Shown: piece after piece, positions 5,472 through 36,280 of the stretch
How positions within the stretch are numbered: position 1 is the stretch's first letter
How the letters are laid out: every line of letters begins with the position of its first letter
Assembly (NCBI GenBank): GCA_016935695.1
Contig: JAFGQL010000158.1
Location: forward strand, 18,423-82,422
Origin: Spirochaetales bacterium
GTDB lineage: Bacteria; Spirochaetota; Spirochaetia; JC444; Marispirochaetaceae
Length of the DNA stretch: 64,000 nucleotides
Reading direction: 5' to 3'
Notes under the pieces: generated by a model
The model's input: the letters and a program-made list of their open reading frames with translations, nothing else
What the model was told of the DNA's origin: nothing
The model's database searches: none
Made by a program: the position numbers and the translations under genes

Positions 5472-5561
5472 TTATTTTTTCTTATGACGGTTCTTTCTGA
5501 GTTTCTTCTTTCGCTTGTGAGTAGCAATCTTATGCCGTTTTTTCTTTCGTCCGCAAGGCAC
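5472..5561 (-). CDS. 29-aa AURKAIP1/COX24-domain-type (small ribosomal-like) basic protein
   Basis: GTG start preceded by AAAGGAG; translation VPCGRKKKRHKIATHKRKKKLRKNRHKKK*. Very short and highly basic, resembling bacterial AURKAIP1/COX24 proteins. Too short for the supplied ORF track. Confidence 0.75.
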   Translation of the reverse strand: MPCGRKKKRHKIATHKRKKKLRKNRHKKK

Positions 5562-19130: not shown

Positions 19131-19159
19131 TTGACCGCCCATGTCTATTCATCTATTCT
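19131..19159 (+). promoter_or_regulatory. Sigma70-like promoter placed for a leaderless or near-leaderless mRNA
   Basis: TTGACC (19131-19136), 17-bp spacer, TATTCT (19154-19159). Expected start site falls at about the ATG at 19168. Confidence 0.5.
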
Positions 19160-19167
19160 GTTTCTCG

Positions 19168-21375
19168 ATGAAGAAAATTTCTGCAGCTATATTTCTGGTC
19201 CTATTATCGGCTGCAACCCTATATTCACAAAGCTTATTGCGAACATCCGTTGAAGAGATTTTAACATCCGTGACGAATATTACAAGTATGTATCCGCGCT
19301 TGGAGGGATCTGCGGCGGAAAACAGTACTGTTTCGTACATCATTGAAGAGCTTAAACCCTACAACATACATTTTCAGTCATCGAATTTCCTGAACATGCA
19401 GGACAATCATTCTTTCAGCCAAATTCTCGAAGCCTCTTTACCGGGTAAAAGCCCTCAGACATTGGTGATTGTTGTACCGCTAAACCACGGAGTCGATGTA
19501 TCGATTGAAAACGACGGAGCAATCAATATTGGTCTGGGCATAGCAATTCTAAAGGAATTCTCCAAGCGTGAACTGCCTATCAGTTTGAAAGTACTGTTCC
19601 TTGGAGCCGAATTCGGTGAAGGAAAGGAATACCCCCTCGGAAGCAGACAATATCTATCCGCCTTTTATCCGATAGAGAGCCATATCTTCATGTATTTGAA
19701 CCTGAAGCGTATTCCTTCCAGAATTCTTATCCGCTCGGGAGGCACCGGGGTAGTAAGTCCCTATTGGTTCATAGAGCGCATCCGCAAAGCACTCGATCAC
19801 AGCGGCCTTTTTTATCTGCTCAAGGGAAATGAAAATCAGCTATATCGTCTAAGTCTTTGGGATTCACAACCGGTCATAGATGAATACCTGCAACAGGGGT
19901 ATCCTGCAGTAAGCATAGAGGGTCTTTACACAGATGAACGGGTGAATGTGTCCGAATGGTATTACGGTTTTTTTTCATTCATGGATCGTTTTATACAAGA
20001 AAACCGGGACGGTTTCATTGAAGAATGGGACAAACATTATCTGTTTTTTCAGCTCAGGTCCTGGTCATTCATCATTACCGAAAAATTACTGGTTCTATTG
20101 TTCATTGCCAGCATCATCATTCCTCTCTCCTACCCTTTCATATTTACTAAAAGATTTAAACGCTACCTGAAGTCTCTGGCAAGGAACTTTTGGGATCTCC
20201 CTGTAATTTTTGCGGGAATCTTCCTGTTTTTTCTGGCAGGAACGATACTTGTCTATATGCTTTTATACCTGCGCGGCTCCGATGTGATCTGGCAAAAATT
20301 CCCGGTCCGCTTTTTCGTGATGAAAGTATCGATATCTTTAGTTTTGTTTTCATTTCTCTTCGGGGTACTCAAGAAAGTCCCGTTTTCTAAAAACTCCACA
20401 TTCTACACGTCTTCTGCCCTTCTGCTGATCACCATCAACATATTAGTCTTATCCGGCCGCAATATCTCATTGAGTTACTATCTTTTATGGGCCTTGTTTT
20501 TTTCCTTTCTCTTCACTCTTGCCCGAAGCAAATGGCTAAAACTCGGAAGCCTTGTTGTCAGCATGTTTTTCCTGGTTAAACTCCTTATAGATATATTCTC
20601 TGTGCCTGCCATGCAACTGATTGAATTCCTGCTTCTCTCTCCGGTAAAAGGCAATCTGATAATTTCATCCAACATCATGCCCTTCCTTCTCATGCTAATA
20701 CGTCTGGACTTCCTTTTCCGGCATCGGGCCCTCAAGCGCCAGAAAGTATTCATGCGCAGTTTCGGTGTCATACTGGGATGCGCGACCATAGGTATTCTGG
20801 TCTCTCTCATACTTGTAGATCCCTATTCACAAGCAGATCCGCAGCCGGTGCTCATACGTGAGTACCGTAACCTGAATACCGACGAGATGGAGATACACAT
20901 CTCGTCGGAAGCGCCGTTTCGTGACCTTCTTGTCGGGATAAAGGAACTTGGCTACCCGATCATTTCAGGATTCAAGGATTATTCGACGGTGGTTTACAAT
21001 TTTGACCAGCCCCTGGAAATAGATACCAGTAAAAACGTATTTTTAAGCAGAGAGAACATTACACTGCGGATCTCATCATCCAGAAAAGTAAAATCCCTAA
21101 CCCTGTCCTTTGATATTTCAGACCCCATAATATACGATGCAAATTTTCCTTACACCCTTTCCCCGTCAGACAATACCGCGGTTCTTCATATAGGCACATC
21201 ACCGCCGAACCCTCTCGTCATTGAATTGACAGTTCCGCAAAATGACATTCAGATACTTCGTTTGGAAGGAGAGCTCTACCCTGAGAAAGAAGACAGTCAA
21301 GTGATCTCCGGTAAGGATATACGTGTACACATCAAGAAAGAATTTTCATATACATTTGACGTACGCGGGCTCTGA
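19168..21375 (+). CDS. Polytopic membrane protein with N-terminal M28-peptidase-like domain
   Basis: Signal MKKISAAIFLVLLSAATLYSQ; NDGAINIGLGIAILKEF and VLFLGAEFGEGKEYPLGSRQYL resemble M28 motifs; multiple TM helices follow. The track ORF starts at 19141; 19168 fits the signal peptide better. Confidence 0.65.
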   Translation: MKKISAAIFLVLLSAATLYSQSLLRTSVEEILTSVTNITSMYPRLEGSAAENSTVSYIIEELKPYNIHFQSSNFLNMQDNHSFSQILEASLPGKSPQTLVIVVPLNHGVDVSIENDGAINIGLGIAILKEFSKRELPISLKVLFLGAEFGEGKEYPLGSRQYLSAFYPIESHIFMYLNLKRIPSRILIRSGGTGVVSPYWFIERIRKALDHSGLFYLLKGNENQLYRLSLWDSQPVIDEYLQQGYPAVSIEGLYTDERVNVSEWYYGFFSFMDRFIQENRDGFIEEWDKHYLFFQLRSWSFIITEKLLVLLFIASIIIPLSYPFIFTKRFKRYLKSLARNFWDLPVIFAGIFLFFLAGTILVYMLLYLRGSDVIWQKFPVRFFVMKVSISLVLFSFLFGVLKKVPFSKNSTFYTSSALLLITINILVLSGRNISLSYYLLWALFFSFLFTLARSKWLKLGSLVVSMFFLVKLLIDIFSVPAMQLIEFLLLSPVKGNLIISSNIMPFLLMLIRLDFLFRHRALKRQKVFMRSFGVILGCATIGILVSLILVDPYSQADPQPVLIREYRNLNTDEMEIHISSEAPFRDLLVGIKELGYPIISGFKDYSTVVYNFDQPLEIDTSKNVFLSRENITLRISSSRKVKSLTLSFDISDPIIYDANFPYTLSPSDNTAVLHIGTSPPNPLVIELTVPQNDIQILRLEGELYPEKEDSQVISGKDIRVHIKKEFSYTFDVRGL

Positions 21376-21384
21376 TAGTATACT
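21356..21384 (+). promoter_or_regulatory. Strong sigma70-like promoter inside the 3' end of the preceding CDS
   Basis: TTGACG (21356-21361), 17-bp spacer, TATACT (21379-21384). Confidence 0.65.
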
Positions 21385-21412
21385 TTAACCAGGACTACAT
21401 AACGGAGGGTAT

Positions 21413-21481
21413 ATGGAAAGCCCACCAAAAAATACAGGCCGGATTATTCCGGCAGCCTTACATGAACTACATATTTTCTGA
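21413..21481 (+). CDS. Possible 22-aa peptide within the candidate RNA
   Basis: ACGGAGGGTAT then ATG; MESPPKNTGRIIPAALHELHIF*. Good ribosome-binding site but no homology evidence. Confidence 0.3.
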   Translation: MESPPKNTGRIIPAALHELHIF

Positions 21482-21593
21482 TTTACATCTTTTATGATGT
21501 ACAGTGGTTAGATAAAAGGCGTATTGCACGCTTTAACAGTGAGTCAGATTTGGCGGCTTCAATGGTTTATCCATAGCAACGTCACTGATTCTT

Positions 21594-21621
21594 AAAGCCG
21601 GATGATTTCCGGCTTTTTTTT
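21594..21621 (+). terminator. Rho-independent terminator of the candidate RNA
   Basis: AAAGCCGGA-TGATT-TCCGGCTTT followed by an unbroken T run. Confidence 0.85.
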
Positions 21622-21868
21622 GTGCTCATTCTTTATTCATGAACACCCTTGTTTTTTGCCAATATCTCCATTATATTTATTATATGCAAATGCTTCCCTT
21701 CCTGGAGTACAGGATATTTTCATTTCTACGGCAATTCAAACTGCTGCCAGAAAATTTCCATCTAAAACCCGTAAAGAGAGTCTATCTCACGTTGGTAATG
21801 ACCGCAACGGAAGCGGAACACCTGCGGGTATACCTTCGAAATTAATAAAGGAAAAATCTTTTTGCGCA

Positions 21869-22504
21869 TCACCCCGCACAGACAGAAACAGCTGTTTCAG
21901 CAGCACTCGCCGCATCAGGAGCATAAAAATCGGCGCCGATGGTCTCACAGAATGACTGGGATACGGGGGCTCCTCCGACAAGAATTTTAACCGTGTCGCG
22001 TATGCCAGAATCATTTGCGGCTTTTATGACATTCGCCATTTCCGTCATGGTCGTGGTCAACAGCGCAGAACAGGCAATAATATCTGCTTTGGCTTCCTGA
22101 GCCTTTGTAATGAAATTCTGGGCCGGAACATCGACGCCGATGTCAATGACATTCAAACCCTTCCCTTCCATCATGATTTTCACCAGGTTTTTGCCAATAT
22201 CATGCAGATCGCCTTTGACGGTACCAAGGATTACCGTGCCCTTGGATTCAACCGATTCTCCCGCCAATGCAGGTTTCAACAATGCGATCCCGGCATTCAT
22301 TGCTCTTGCGGCAATCAGTACCTCCGGAATGAACACCTGGTTGTTCTTGAATTTTTCACCTATAACTCCCATCCCTGCAAGTAAGCCGTTTTCCAGTATT
22401 TCCTTTGCGCTTACTCCCTCATCCAGGGCGGCAGTCACAAGGTCGGACACTTCTTTTGCGCGTCCCTTTTGAAGTAATTCTGACATAGCTTGCAAATCAG
22501 CCAT
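21869..22504 (-). CDS. Methyltransferase cognate corrinoid (B12-binding) protein, MtbC/MttC-like
   Basis: KFKNNQVFIPEVLIAARAMNAGIALLKP helical domain; TVKGDLHDIGKNLVKIMMEGKGLNVIDIGVDVP (DxHxxG). Start at MADLQAMSEL preceded by AGGAG; the track ORF extends upstream to 22561. Confidence 0.9.
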   Translation of the reverse strand: MADLQAMSELLQKGRAKEVSDLVTAALDEGVSAKEILENGLLAGMGVIGEKFKNNQVFIPEVLIAARAMNAGIALLKPALAGESVESKGTVILGTVKGDLHDIGKNLVKIMMEGKGLNVIDIGVDVPAQNFITKAQEAKADIIACSALLTTTMTEMANVIKAANDSGIRDTVKILVGGAPVSQSFCETIGADFYAPDAASAAETAVSVCAG

Positions 22505-22612
22505 AGGTATAATCTCCTGTAATTGTACAGTTGTAGTATGTATACGCCGAAGTATGGACACAGTGTACTATAGATTCCCGGTAATTCAAGATTTATTAAC
22601 CATTTTTTCCTT

Positions 22613-24403
22613 TCAGGGAAACATCATGTGTTCCATGAAGTACTCATTGAAGGTGTGGTTCCCCGACAACTCTATATAATGTGCCCCCTGGGCGATACCC
22701 TGCGCTTTGCATAATGCTGACTCATCAAGAAGTACTTCCAGAGCTCCTTCTCCCGAACTGTTTCCGGAAAACTCAATTTTCCCTGCCCATGAAGGATTGA
22801 ACAAGCCGATTGCCATGGCATTTTCCACATCTATATAATTCCCGAACGCTCCCGCAACACATACGCGCGCAATCCGTTCCCGATCAATTCCAGAAGTATC
22901 GATCAGGGCTTCTATACCTGCGCGGACTGCGGCCTTTGCAAGTTGAACTTCCCGCAGGTCTTTCTGGGTAATACGGACTTTATCCGAAAGCTCTATGTAC
23001 AGCTCATTCTCCAGCTGCTTCACCTGAACGCCACAGGCTTCGGTACCTTCGGGTGCGAAGGCTCCGGTTTCATCGACTAAGTCTTTCCTCCGCAAAACCG
23101 CGACAAGGTCTATGATGCCGGATCCGCAGATTCCCACAGGTACTTTGTCATGAATAGTCTCATACCTGATTTTTTTGCCGTCTATGCGCACGGAAAATAC
23201 TGCACCTGCGATTCCGCCTGTCCCGCAGGAAAGATGGGCTCCTTCAAAAGCCGGGCCCGCCGCAGTGGCGCAGGTGTATAAAACCTCCCTGTTCCCCAAT
23301 GCAACTTCTCCGTTCGTACCCAGGTCTACAAAAAGAGTAATTTCCTGCAAGCGGTACATTCCCGAAGACAGGATGCCCGAGGTAATATCCCCTCCCACGA
23401 AAGCGGCAATGGATGGCATGAGTACGGTGAGCCCTTTTGGATGAACAGAAGCAAAGAGTTCGTCATTTCTTACGGTAAGGGATTCCAGAAAAGCCGGAGT
23501 GAACGGGCTTACACCGAGCTGCCGGACAGGTACTCCTGCAAGAAAGTGCAGCATTGCCGTATTACCTGAACAGACGATCATATGAATGTGCAACGGGTCT
23601 ACTCCACAGGAGCCGCAAACATTGCGGATCATACAATCCACCTCGTTCCGGACAGCTGTTGAAAGGACCTCCACACCTCTGGTATTTGCGTAGTGTATCC
23701 GGCTGATAACGTCGGCGCCGCAGCTGCGCTGAGGATTAAGAGATGAAGTGGTACCCGTTATGTTTCCTGTATGGAGGTCCACAAGATACAGGACCATGGT
23801 AGTAGTACCTATATCCACAGCCGCCCCGAAATGAACCGGCCCCCGGGCGCCCCCGAGAATACGGTTCTGCCACACAAGAAAATAATGTGGCTGATCGGGA
23901 GTATCCATACAGGCAGCCATATCCTGAACCACACTGACAGATTCCCCGGCAGAAACACTTCCTGATACACCCGCAAAACTCGAAAGGACCGCAGAAACAT
24001 GATCGCGGAAGACAGTATCAGGCCCTTTCGGCAGGTTCACGGGGACCAGTGTAACCGCAGGTTTCAGACTCCTCACCGCAAAGGAGGTATCCTCAAGTAT
24101 CTTTACCGCCCCCGCGTCCAGAATATAGATTTCGGCCTCTCCTGCGATCTTTGCTGCGCAACTTAGCCGGAAGCCTTCTTTTATCCGTTTTTCATCCAGC
24201 AGTCGCAGCTCTTCTTCACCTGGCTCGGAAACAGCCCCGTGTACCTTCACCAGGCATTTACCGCAGGTCCTTGCGCCGCCGCAGGGCGCATGAATACCGG
24301 AAATTCCTGCGTGTCTGAGGGCATCCAGAATTATCGTTTCATGTCGAACTCTTATCTTCTGTTTTTTGTTTCCCTGGTGTACGGTAACTGTATGGGTTTT
24401 CAT
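22613..24403 (-). CDS. ASKHA-domain corrinoid activation protein (RACo/RamA-like) with N-terminal 2Fe-2S ferredoxin domain
   Basis: GIHAPCGGARTCGKCLVKVHG plant-type ferredoxin motif; FGAAVDIGTTTMVLYLVDL, LFVDLGTNGEVALGN, CGSGIIDLVAVLRR, VCVAGAFGNYIDVENAMAIGLFN. Confidence 0.9.
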   Translation of the reverse strand: MKTHTVTVHQGNKKQKIRVRHETIILDALRHAGISGIHAPCGGARTCGKCLVKVHGAVSEPGEEELRLLDEKRIKEGFRLSCAAKIAGEAEIYILDAGAVKILEDTSFAVRSLKPAVTLVPVNLPKGPDTVFRDHVSAVLSSFAGVSGSVSAGESVSVVQDMAACMDTPDQPHYFLVWQNRILGGARGPVHFGAAVDIGTTTMVLYLVDLHTGNITGTTSSLNPQRSCGADVISRIHYANTRGVEVLSTAVRNEVDCMIRNVCGSCGVDPLHIHMIVCSGNTAMLHFLAGVPVRQLGVSPFTPAFLESLTVRNDELFASVHPKGLTVLMPSIAAFVGGDITSGILSSGMYRLQEITLFVDLGTNGEVALGNREVLYTCATAAGPAFEGAHLSCGTGGIAGAVFSVRIDGKKIRYETIHDKVPVGICGSGIIDLVAVLRRKDLVDETGAFAPEGTEACGVQVKQLENELYIELSDKVRITQKDLREVQLAKAAVRAGIEALIDTSGIDRERIARVCVAGAFGNYIDVENAMAIGLFNPSWAGKIEFSGNSSGEGALEVLLDESALCKAQGIAQGAHYIELSGNHTFNEYFMEHMMFP

Positions 24404-24596: not shown

Positions 24597-24953
24597 ATGG
24601 AAGACCAGGAAAAACGAAAATTCAGCAGAGCCCATTTTCACGGTAACGGCGTTCTATTGAAAGGGAGCGTTCAGTACCCGGTACAGGTGGAAGATTTGTC
24701 CCTCCGGGGGGTGCTCATATCTTGTGACCAGCACCTTCAACTTCATGAAGAAGTACGTTTTCACCTGATACTGACACATTCGGATATAGTGATCGAAACT
24801 GAAGGCGTAGTTGTCCATAAACATGGCAGAGAATACGGAATCAAATTCACACTGGTTGATGCCGAGGGCATGATTCACCTGCGGAGCATCATGGAATACA
24901 ATACCGAAGATTTTTCGGGAATTGAAAACGAACTTTTTTTCCTGAAAAACTGA
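24597..24953 (+). CDS. PilZ domain protein (candidate c-di-GMP receptor)
   Basis: RKFSRA (RxxxR) and VEDLSLRGVLIS (DxSxxG). Confidence 0.85.
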   Translation: MEDQEKRKFSRAHFHGNGVLLKGSVQYPVQVEDLSLRGVLISCDQHLQLHEEVRFHLILTHSDIVIETEGVVVHKHGREYGIKFTLVDAEGMIHLRSIMEYNTEDFSGIENELFFLKN

Positions 24954-34789: not shown

Positions 34790-36280
34790 TTACAGGCTTT
34801 GTTTCACCAGTTCGATACTCCTGTCCACCCGCCGCAAGGCCTCGCCAATCCCCATCAGCTTTACCGACTCAAACAAAGGCGGCGACATGGTGCTGCCGGT
34901 TATACTTACCCGCAGGGGCATCATCAGATTACCTGTTTTCGTATCCATGGCCTGTGCGGCTTTCTCAAACTCCTGCTCCAGCTCCTCCACAGATGACTGG
35001 GAACCAGCTGCCAGAAGGTCCCTCCCCTTTTGAAGCCAGGGAATGACATCTGTCATAGTACAGTTTTTTGGCACCAGCAGCGCCGGATCGGTAACCGGCA
35101 CATCCTGGAACAGAAACCGTACCAGACCGGGCACATCGGACAGCACCTTGAGCCGCGGCTGTACAAGGGGGATCATTGCGGCGATTATCCGTTCTTCCTG
35201 GGCAGATGGAGGGTCCGCTACAAGGGCATGATCAATCAGATAGGGCATGATAAGAGTCTTCAGTTCCCCTTCGCTCTTCTGCCGGATATAGTGCCCGTTG
35301 TACCAGTCAAGCTTCTTGTAGTCAAAGACCCCCGGAGCCTTGTTGAGTTTCTCCATGGAAAAACATTCCTCCAGCTCTTTCAGGGTGAAGAATTCCCGTT
35401 TGTCGTCATAAGACCAGCCTACTTGTGAAATGTAATTCACGATTGCCTCGGGAAGATATCCGGCTTTGCGAAAATCACGTACTGCCGTGTCGCCGTGGCG
35501 TTTGGAGAGCTTCTGACCGTCTTTGCCCATCACCATGGGCAGATGAACGTATACCGGGGCCTGGTACCCCAGGGCTTTGAATAAAAGCACATGGAGAGGC
35601 GCCGAGGGCAGCCATTCCTGTCCACGGATGACATGAGTGGTTTTCATGAGAGTATCGTCAATGGCATGGGCCAGATGATAGGTGGGAAATCCGTCGCTCT
35701 TTATAATGACCGGATCAGGATTAATGTCCTTCACCTTCCTCTTAACCTCACCCAACAGCACGTCCTCTATAACTATCCGTTCGCTGTCGTTTTCGGGGAG
35801 GGCAAACCGGATTACCGGTTTCCGGCCTTCCTTGGCCAGCACTTCTTCCGCTTTTTCCCGTTCCTCCCGGCTTAAATACCGGCAGTGACGGTCATACCCT
35901 ATAGACTGCTTGTTTTTTTCCTGCAAGCTGCGCAGGTCGTTCAGCCTGGCCTCGCTGCAATAACAGTAATACGCCTTGCCTTCCTCAATGAGCCGCCTGG
36001 CATGCTGCTGGTAAATTTCGAACCGTTCGCTCTGTATATACGGTCCGTAGGGTCCGCCGATATCCGGCCCTTCATCCCATGTAATGCCCAGCCAGCGGAG
36101 TGTTTCATACAGATCGTTTATGGACTCTGCGGAGCTGCGGGCCTGATCGGTGTCTTCTATCCGCAGGTAAAAAACACCTTTGCCGGCTTTCGCGGCCAGG
36201 TATTCAAATAAAGCGGTCCTTACACCGCCTATATGCTGAAGCCCCGTAGGCGACGGGGCGTAACGTATGCGAACACTCAT
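34790..36280 (-). CDS. gltX: Glutamyl-tRNA synthetase
   Basis: VRIRYAPSPTGLQHIGGVRTALFEYLAAK; GQEWLPSAPLHVLLF; GKDGQKLSKRHGDTAV. Confidence 0.97.
   Translation of the reverse strand: MSVRIRYAPSPTGLQHIGGVRTALFEYLAAKAGKGVFYLRIEDTDQARSSAESINDLYETLRWLGITWDEGPDIGGPYGPYIQSERFEIYQQHARRLIEEGKAYYCYCSEARLNDLRSLQEKNKQSIGYDRHCRYLSREEREKAEEVLAKEGRKPVIRFALPENDSERIVIEDVLLGEVKRKVKDINPDPVIIKSDGFPTYHLAHAIDDTLMKTTHVIRGQEWLPSAPLHVLLFKALGYQAPVYVHLPMVMGKDGQKLSKRHGDTAVRDFRKAGYLPEAIVNYISQVGWSYDDKREFFTLKELEECFSMEKLNKAPGVFDYKKLDWYNGHYIRQKSEGELKTLIMPYLIDHALVADPPSAQEERIIAAMIPLVQPRLKVLSDVPGLVRFLFQDVPVTDPALLVPKNCTMTDVIPWLQKGRDLLAAGSQSSVEELEQEFEKAAQAMDTKTGNLMMPLRVSITGSTMSPPLFESVKLMGIGEALRRVDRSIELVKQSL

Follow-up and report, generated by a model that had tools for sequence, protein, structure and literature searches.

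RESULTS

A promoter-like site and a terminator delimit a candidate unit between two converging genes

In an uncultured spirochaete (2.98-Mb draft genome, 182 contigs, 82% complete), two genes converge on a short gap. Does this gap encode a small RNA of its own? The initial annotation of the surrounding 64,000 nucleotides, hereafter the window, had proposed that a promoter in the last codons of one gene, a series of hairpins, and an intrinsic terminator together form a stand-alone unit for a structured RNA. The gap is 493 nt long and lies between a membrane-protein gene on the + strand and a corrinoid-protein gene on the - strand (Table 1). The membrane protein gave nothing above cut-off in a Pfam and NCBIfam scan; it has matches in 42 of the 60 genomes searched, its own genome counted, and shares 38 to 41% identity with its homologues in the same family.

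Both ends of the proposed unit were confirmed. The promoter-like site agrees with the sigma-70 consensus at 10 of 12 positions and spans the last codons and the stop codon (TGA, 21373-21375) of the membrane-protein gene, and transcription from it would begin near position 21391. The terminator consists of the hairpin AAAGCCGGATGATTTCCGGCTTT (21594-21616) followed by TTTTTG. About 205 nt of hairpins separate the promoter from the terminator hairpin, no long open reading frame (ORF) intervenes, and the order and spacing of the elements are right. On its two strands the window contains 18 promoters that score at least as well, a density of roughly one in 7 kb of strand, and it has four other pairs of promoter and terminator within 500 nt; the pairing is therefore suggestive, not decisive.

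Table 1. Features of the candidate small-RNA locus (window positions)
Feature	Position	Strand	Remarks
744-aa membrane-protein gene, upstream of candidate	19141-21375	+	widespread in class
Sigma-70-like promoter, TTGACG-17-TATACT	21356-21384	+	10/12 consensus matches
Predicted discrete transcript, ~230 nt	21391-21621	+	ends placed by promoter and terminator; z -4.2
Hairpin H0	21404-21426	+	GGAGGG, resembling a ribosome-binding site, paired with CCCACC; pair probabilities 0.86-0.89
22-codon ORF, MESPPKNTGRIIPAALHELHIF	21413-21481	+	behind GGAGGG; coding status doubtful
Hairpin H1, GCCGGATTATTCCGGC	21438-21453	+	near-copy of the terminator stem-loop, GCCGGATGATTTCCGGC
Hairpin H2	21484-21501	+	pair probabilities 0.91-1.0; longer outer stem as alternative
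Hairpin H3	21516-21534	+	pair probabilities 0.74-0.93
Hairpin H4, long interrupted stem	21541-21591	+	pair probabilities 0.79-1.0; z -3.2 alone
Intrinsic terminator	21594-21621	+	9-bp stem and T-run
53-aa ORF	21684-21845	+	starts ~60 nt past the terminator
B12-binding corrinoid protein, convergent gene	21869-22561	-	Pfam B12-binding
RACo (reductive activator of corrinoid proteins), behind corrinoid-protein gene	22613-24403	-	Pfam RACo domains

The predicted fold exceeds chance, in part through the terminator

The initial annotation counted at least five hairpins in the body, and the five that we predict from pair probabilities, mostly above 0.8, lie where it had placed them. Scored against dinucleotide shuffles, the 230-nt body gave z values of -4.5 and -4.2 in two runs, with none of 200 shuffles as stable, and the + strand fold reached -68.9 kcal/mol versus -61.9 kcal/mol for the - strand. 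Much of this signal comes from the terminator, since z falls to -2.3 when it is left out (21391-21590); the corresponding value for 21437-21590 is -3.4. We also scanned the window in 230-nt stretches at 300-base steps on both strands (n = 428; mean z -0.4, standard deviation 1.15), and the candidate ranked third, behind a stretch opposite a long ORF and a second stretch that holds the tRNA. The strongest fold in the window, at 35701-35930 (+) with a z of -5.2, lies opposite the long - strand ORF at 34790-36280; as such a value can arise there, a strong z alone is no proof of an RNA gene.

Hairpin H1 can be read in both directions. On the - strand its stem is followed by the T-rich sequence CTGTATTTTTT, and for this reason H1 may end the corrinoid-protein/RACo operon; if it does, the 3' ends of the + and - transcripts would overlap. 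A quite possible alternative is that the locus is an ordinary 3' intergenic region in which the hairpin at 21594 ends the + strand gene, H1 ends the - strand genes, and the promoter match and the additional hairpins are due to chance. The convergence of the genes fits this explanation, as do the T-rich tail of H1 and its likeness to the + strand terminator stem, the frequency of similarly scoring promoters in the window, the z of -5.2 seen opposite a long ORF, and the lack of conservation described below. It accounts less well for the segment from H2 to H4, which, with both terminators excluded, is more stable than all 200 of its shuffles (21470-21590; z -2.7), for a promoter exactly at the gene end, and for the - strand T-run, which begins several bases past the stem and would make a poor terminator.

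The candidate matches no known RNA family and lacks the hallmarks of 6S RNA

No Rfam family, including tmRNA, RNase P, SRP RNA, and the riboswitches, matched the candidate at the gathering threshold, and a permissive scan (E up to 10) returned chance matches only. Among these was RyhB, whose 20.7 bits fell short of the cut-off of 55. The initial annotation had likewise not recognized the architecture as any of these RNAs or as a familiar riboswitch. The tmRNA of the host was found elsewhere in its genome. A search of the host genome for class A RNase P RNA with RF00010 at E up to 0.001 found none; this RNA may simply be missing from the assembly, as the genome is 82% complete.

A 6S-like function, which the initial annotation had left possible, is now disfavored. 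The 6S model RF00013 did not match the candidate even at E up to 10. Among class genomes, 34 of 98 carry a match above cut-off, and none was found in the host genome or in three genomes of its family; these four have either lost their 6S RNA or carry one that has diverged too far. In spirochaete 6S RNAs, terminal arms, CCTGCGGTGT...GCACCGCGGG, close the molecule, and most members aligned also contain a TCTCTTG...CAAGAGA pair; this pair was found nowhere in the host genome or the three family members. That the candidate is a diverged 6S RNA is thus highly improbable, even though its size is about right and Rfam leaves the 6S RNA of the host and its family unaccounted for: its predicted fold strings individual hairpins together, leaves the 5' end open, and has no stable closing stem, unlike the single long rod of 6S RNA with its paired ends and central bubble.

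No homologue was found in related genomes

A blastn search of 60 genomes found no homologue of the candidate; the best nonself match (E = 0.001) covers the terminator. We then used a covariance model built from two identical copies of the one sequence, so that its reach is limited. With strict filters it found no homologue in 297 class genomes; its only match there (E = 0.12) consists of intergenic, operator-like TAGTA...TACTA palindromes and was rejected. With laxer filters, it returned a single 17-bit match in the 40 nearest genomes, and it found no homologue in the fetched loci. Searches of plasmids and phages gave chance-level matches only, and viral contigs gave three 17-base matches, by our estimate about the number expected by chance for a collection of that size, and covariance scores of at most 13.5 bits.

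Synteny led to the same result. Downstream of the homologues of the membrane-protein gene in same-family genomes, no comparable RNA was found. Homologues of this gene have other protein genes directly behind them, and visual inspection often pointed to a nitroreductase or DinB-like polymerase gene in that place. Around ClpA, whose nearest named records share at most 66% identity and come from uncultured Spirochaetia and Spirochaetales bins, only the neighboring Leu/Phe-tRNA transferase gene is kept in relatives.

The proposal of a stand-alone structured RNA therefore stands in part: the sequence fits it and no Rfam family claims it, but the nucleotide search in related spirochaetes revealed no conserved relative. 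This counts as a weak refutation and not as disproof, because the genomes searched include three from the host family and no second member of the host genus. At 38 to 41% identity between the neighboring proteins, an RNA could be missed or lost, and the result is best read as "not conserved at family level," not as "nonfunctional."

Short ORFs within and behind the unit

The unit could instead be a tiny mRNA, in which the 22-aa peptide is translated from a ribosome-binding site masked by H0 and the remainder serves as a structured 3' part. The GGAGGG stretch (21404-21409) lies three bases ahead of an ATG in the loop of H0 and is paired with CCCACC, and another unit in the window appears to encode a small protein (see below). 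We nevertheless consider this reading unlikely: the peptide has no family match, and only chance matches in the fetched relatives; the spacing from ribosome-binding site to start is short; and GGAGG precedes short ORFs in the window about as often as it precedes long ones, for which reason this ORF counts for little.

The other unit runs on the - strand from approximately 5684 to 5379, from a promoter to a strong terminator upstream of a FlgH-like gene. It contains, at 5472-5561, AAAGGAG, a GTG start, and a very basic 29-residue ORF, MPCGRKKKRHKIATHKRKKKLRKNRHKKK, that ends in TAA. This ORF has no Pfam or NCBIfam match; it resembles the tiny basic ribosomal proteins of the AURKAIP1/COX24 type.

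It had also been argued that the unit is unlikely to be a leader, as the next + strand gene starts about 3 kb away. This holds for the next substantial gene, which encodes a PilZ protein at 24597; the 53-aa ORF is nearer. A regulatory leader for that ORF, either a riboswitch or an attenuator, would have the usual layout of a structured RNA followed by a terminator, at a distance of about 60 nt. We judge it very unlikely all the same, for the ORF has no family match, 198 class genomes yielded no convincing relative of it, no known riboswitch matches the candidate, and the ORF has a promoter-like site of its own (TTGCCA-16-TATTAT, 21656-21683). The codon usage of the 53-aa ORF is mildly gene-like.

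DISCUSSION

We tentatively prefer to read the candidate as a type I 3'UTR small RNA specific to its lineage, although the chances of this reading fall a little short of even. What defines this kind is a promoter that lies inside a coding sequence or immediately after it (PMC7821165). At this locus, the stop codon of the upstream gene falls inside a promoter-like site that agrees with the consensus at 10 of 12 positions, and the 3' end carries an intrinsic terminator (21594-21621); against this assignment, no homologue by sequence or by structure was found in any of the genomes searched. RNA polymerase would start at the sigma-70-like promoter and stop at the intrinsic terminator, and the product would be a structured RNA some 230 nt long. 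Its most likely action would be base pairing of unpaired stretches, such as the A/U-rich segment at 21454-21477, with mRNAs encoded elsewhere or with the transcript of the convergent corrinoid-protein and RACo genes, at its 3' end. What the sequence shows directly are promoter-like and terminator elements, an unusual fold, and the lack of a known family; that the unit is transcribed, its length, the way it pairs, and its target, if any, are inferred.

Such pairing would work without canonical Hfq. Pfam model PF17209 detected no Hfq in the host genome or in 40 class relatives (41 genomes), and this model could miss an unusual Hfq like that of Borrelia (PMC5216591). In Borrelia burgdorferi, RNA sequencing led to the calling of 156 intergenic small RNAs (PMC5216591). 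Should the transcript prove real, it would offer one candidate for Hfq-independent regulation.

A more elaborate proposal, which we regard as improbable, is a new structured RNA confined to one uncultured spirochaete genus that either has a dual function, combining a regulated 22-aa peptide with a regulatory RNA, or is tied to the corrinoid/RACo genes through overlapping 3' ends. To our knowledge, most small RNAs of spirochaetes from the environment have yet to be mapped. The observation made here is sound, and a small RNA gene without known relatives is plausible but unproven. As no relative was found in any genome searched, the most that it can be is a further small RNA particular to its lineage, with a function that is a guess; as the evidence stands, it is a candidate from a single genome and settles no open question.

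Set beside known systems, the candidate resembles 6S RNA (RF00013) in its length and in being a stand-alone unit, and it differs from 6S RNA in having neither a closing terminal stem nor the TCTCTTG/CAAGAGA pair. With the RsmW-type RNAs, which sequester RsmA/CsrA, it shares several GGA motifs in its 5' half, one of them in the H0 loop (AUGGA), and, if the preferred reading holds, a type I 3'UTR origin; it differs from them in that there are only five GGA motifs in about 230 nt, of which most lie outside loops, while H2 to H4 contain none. The type I examples MicL, DapZ, and MicX, and ArgX in Lactococcus, are discrete structured RNAs, whereas the candidate is a predicted one; those described in PMC7821165 have identified targets, whereas the candidate is described here from its sequence, in a genome where no Pfam-type Hfq was found. 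What it has in common with MicL, DapZ, MicX, and ArgX is the arrangement itself, a promoter (in the candidate, a predicted one) inside or just after the 3' end of a coding sequence and an intrinsic terminator behind it.
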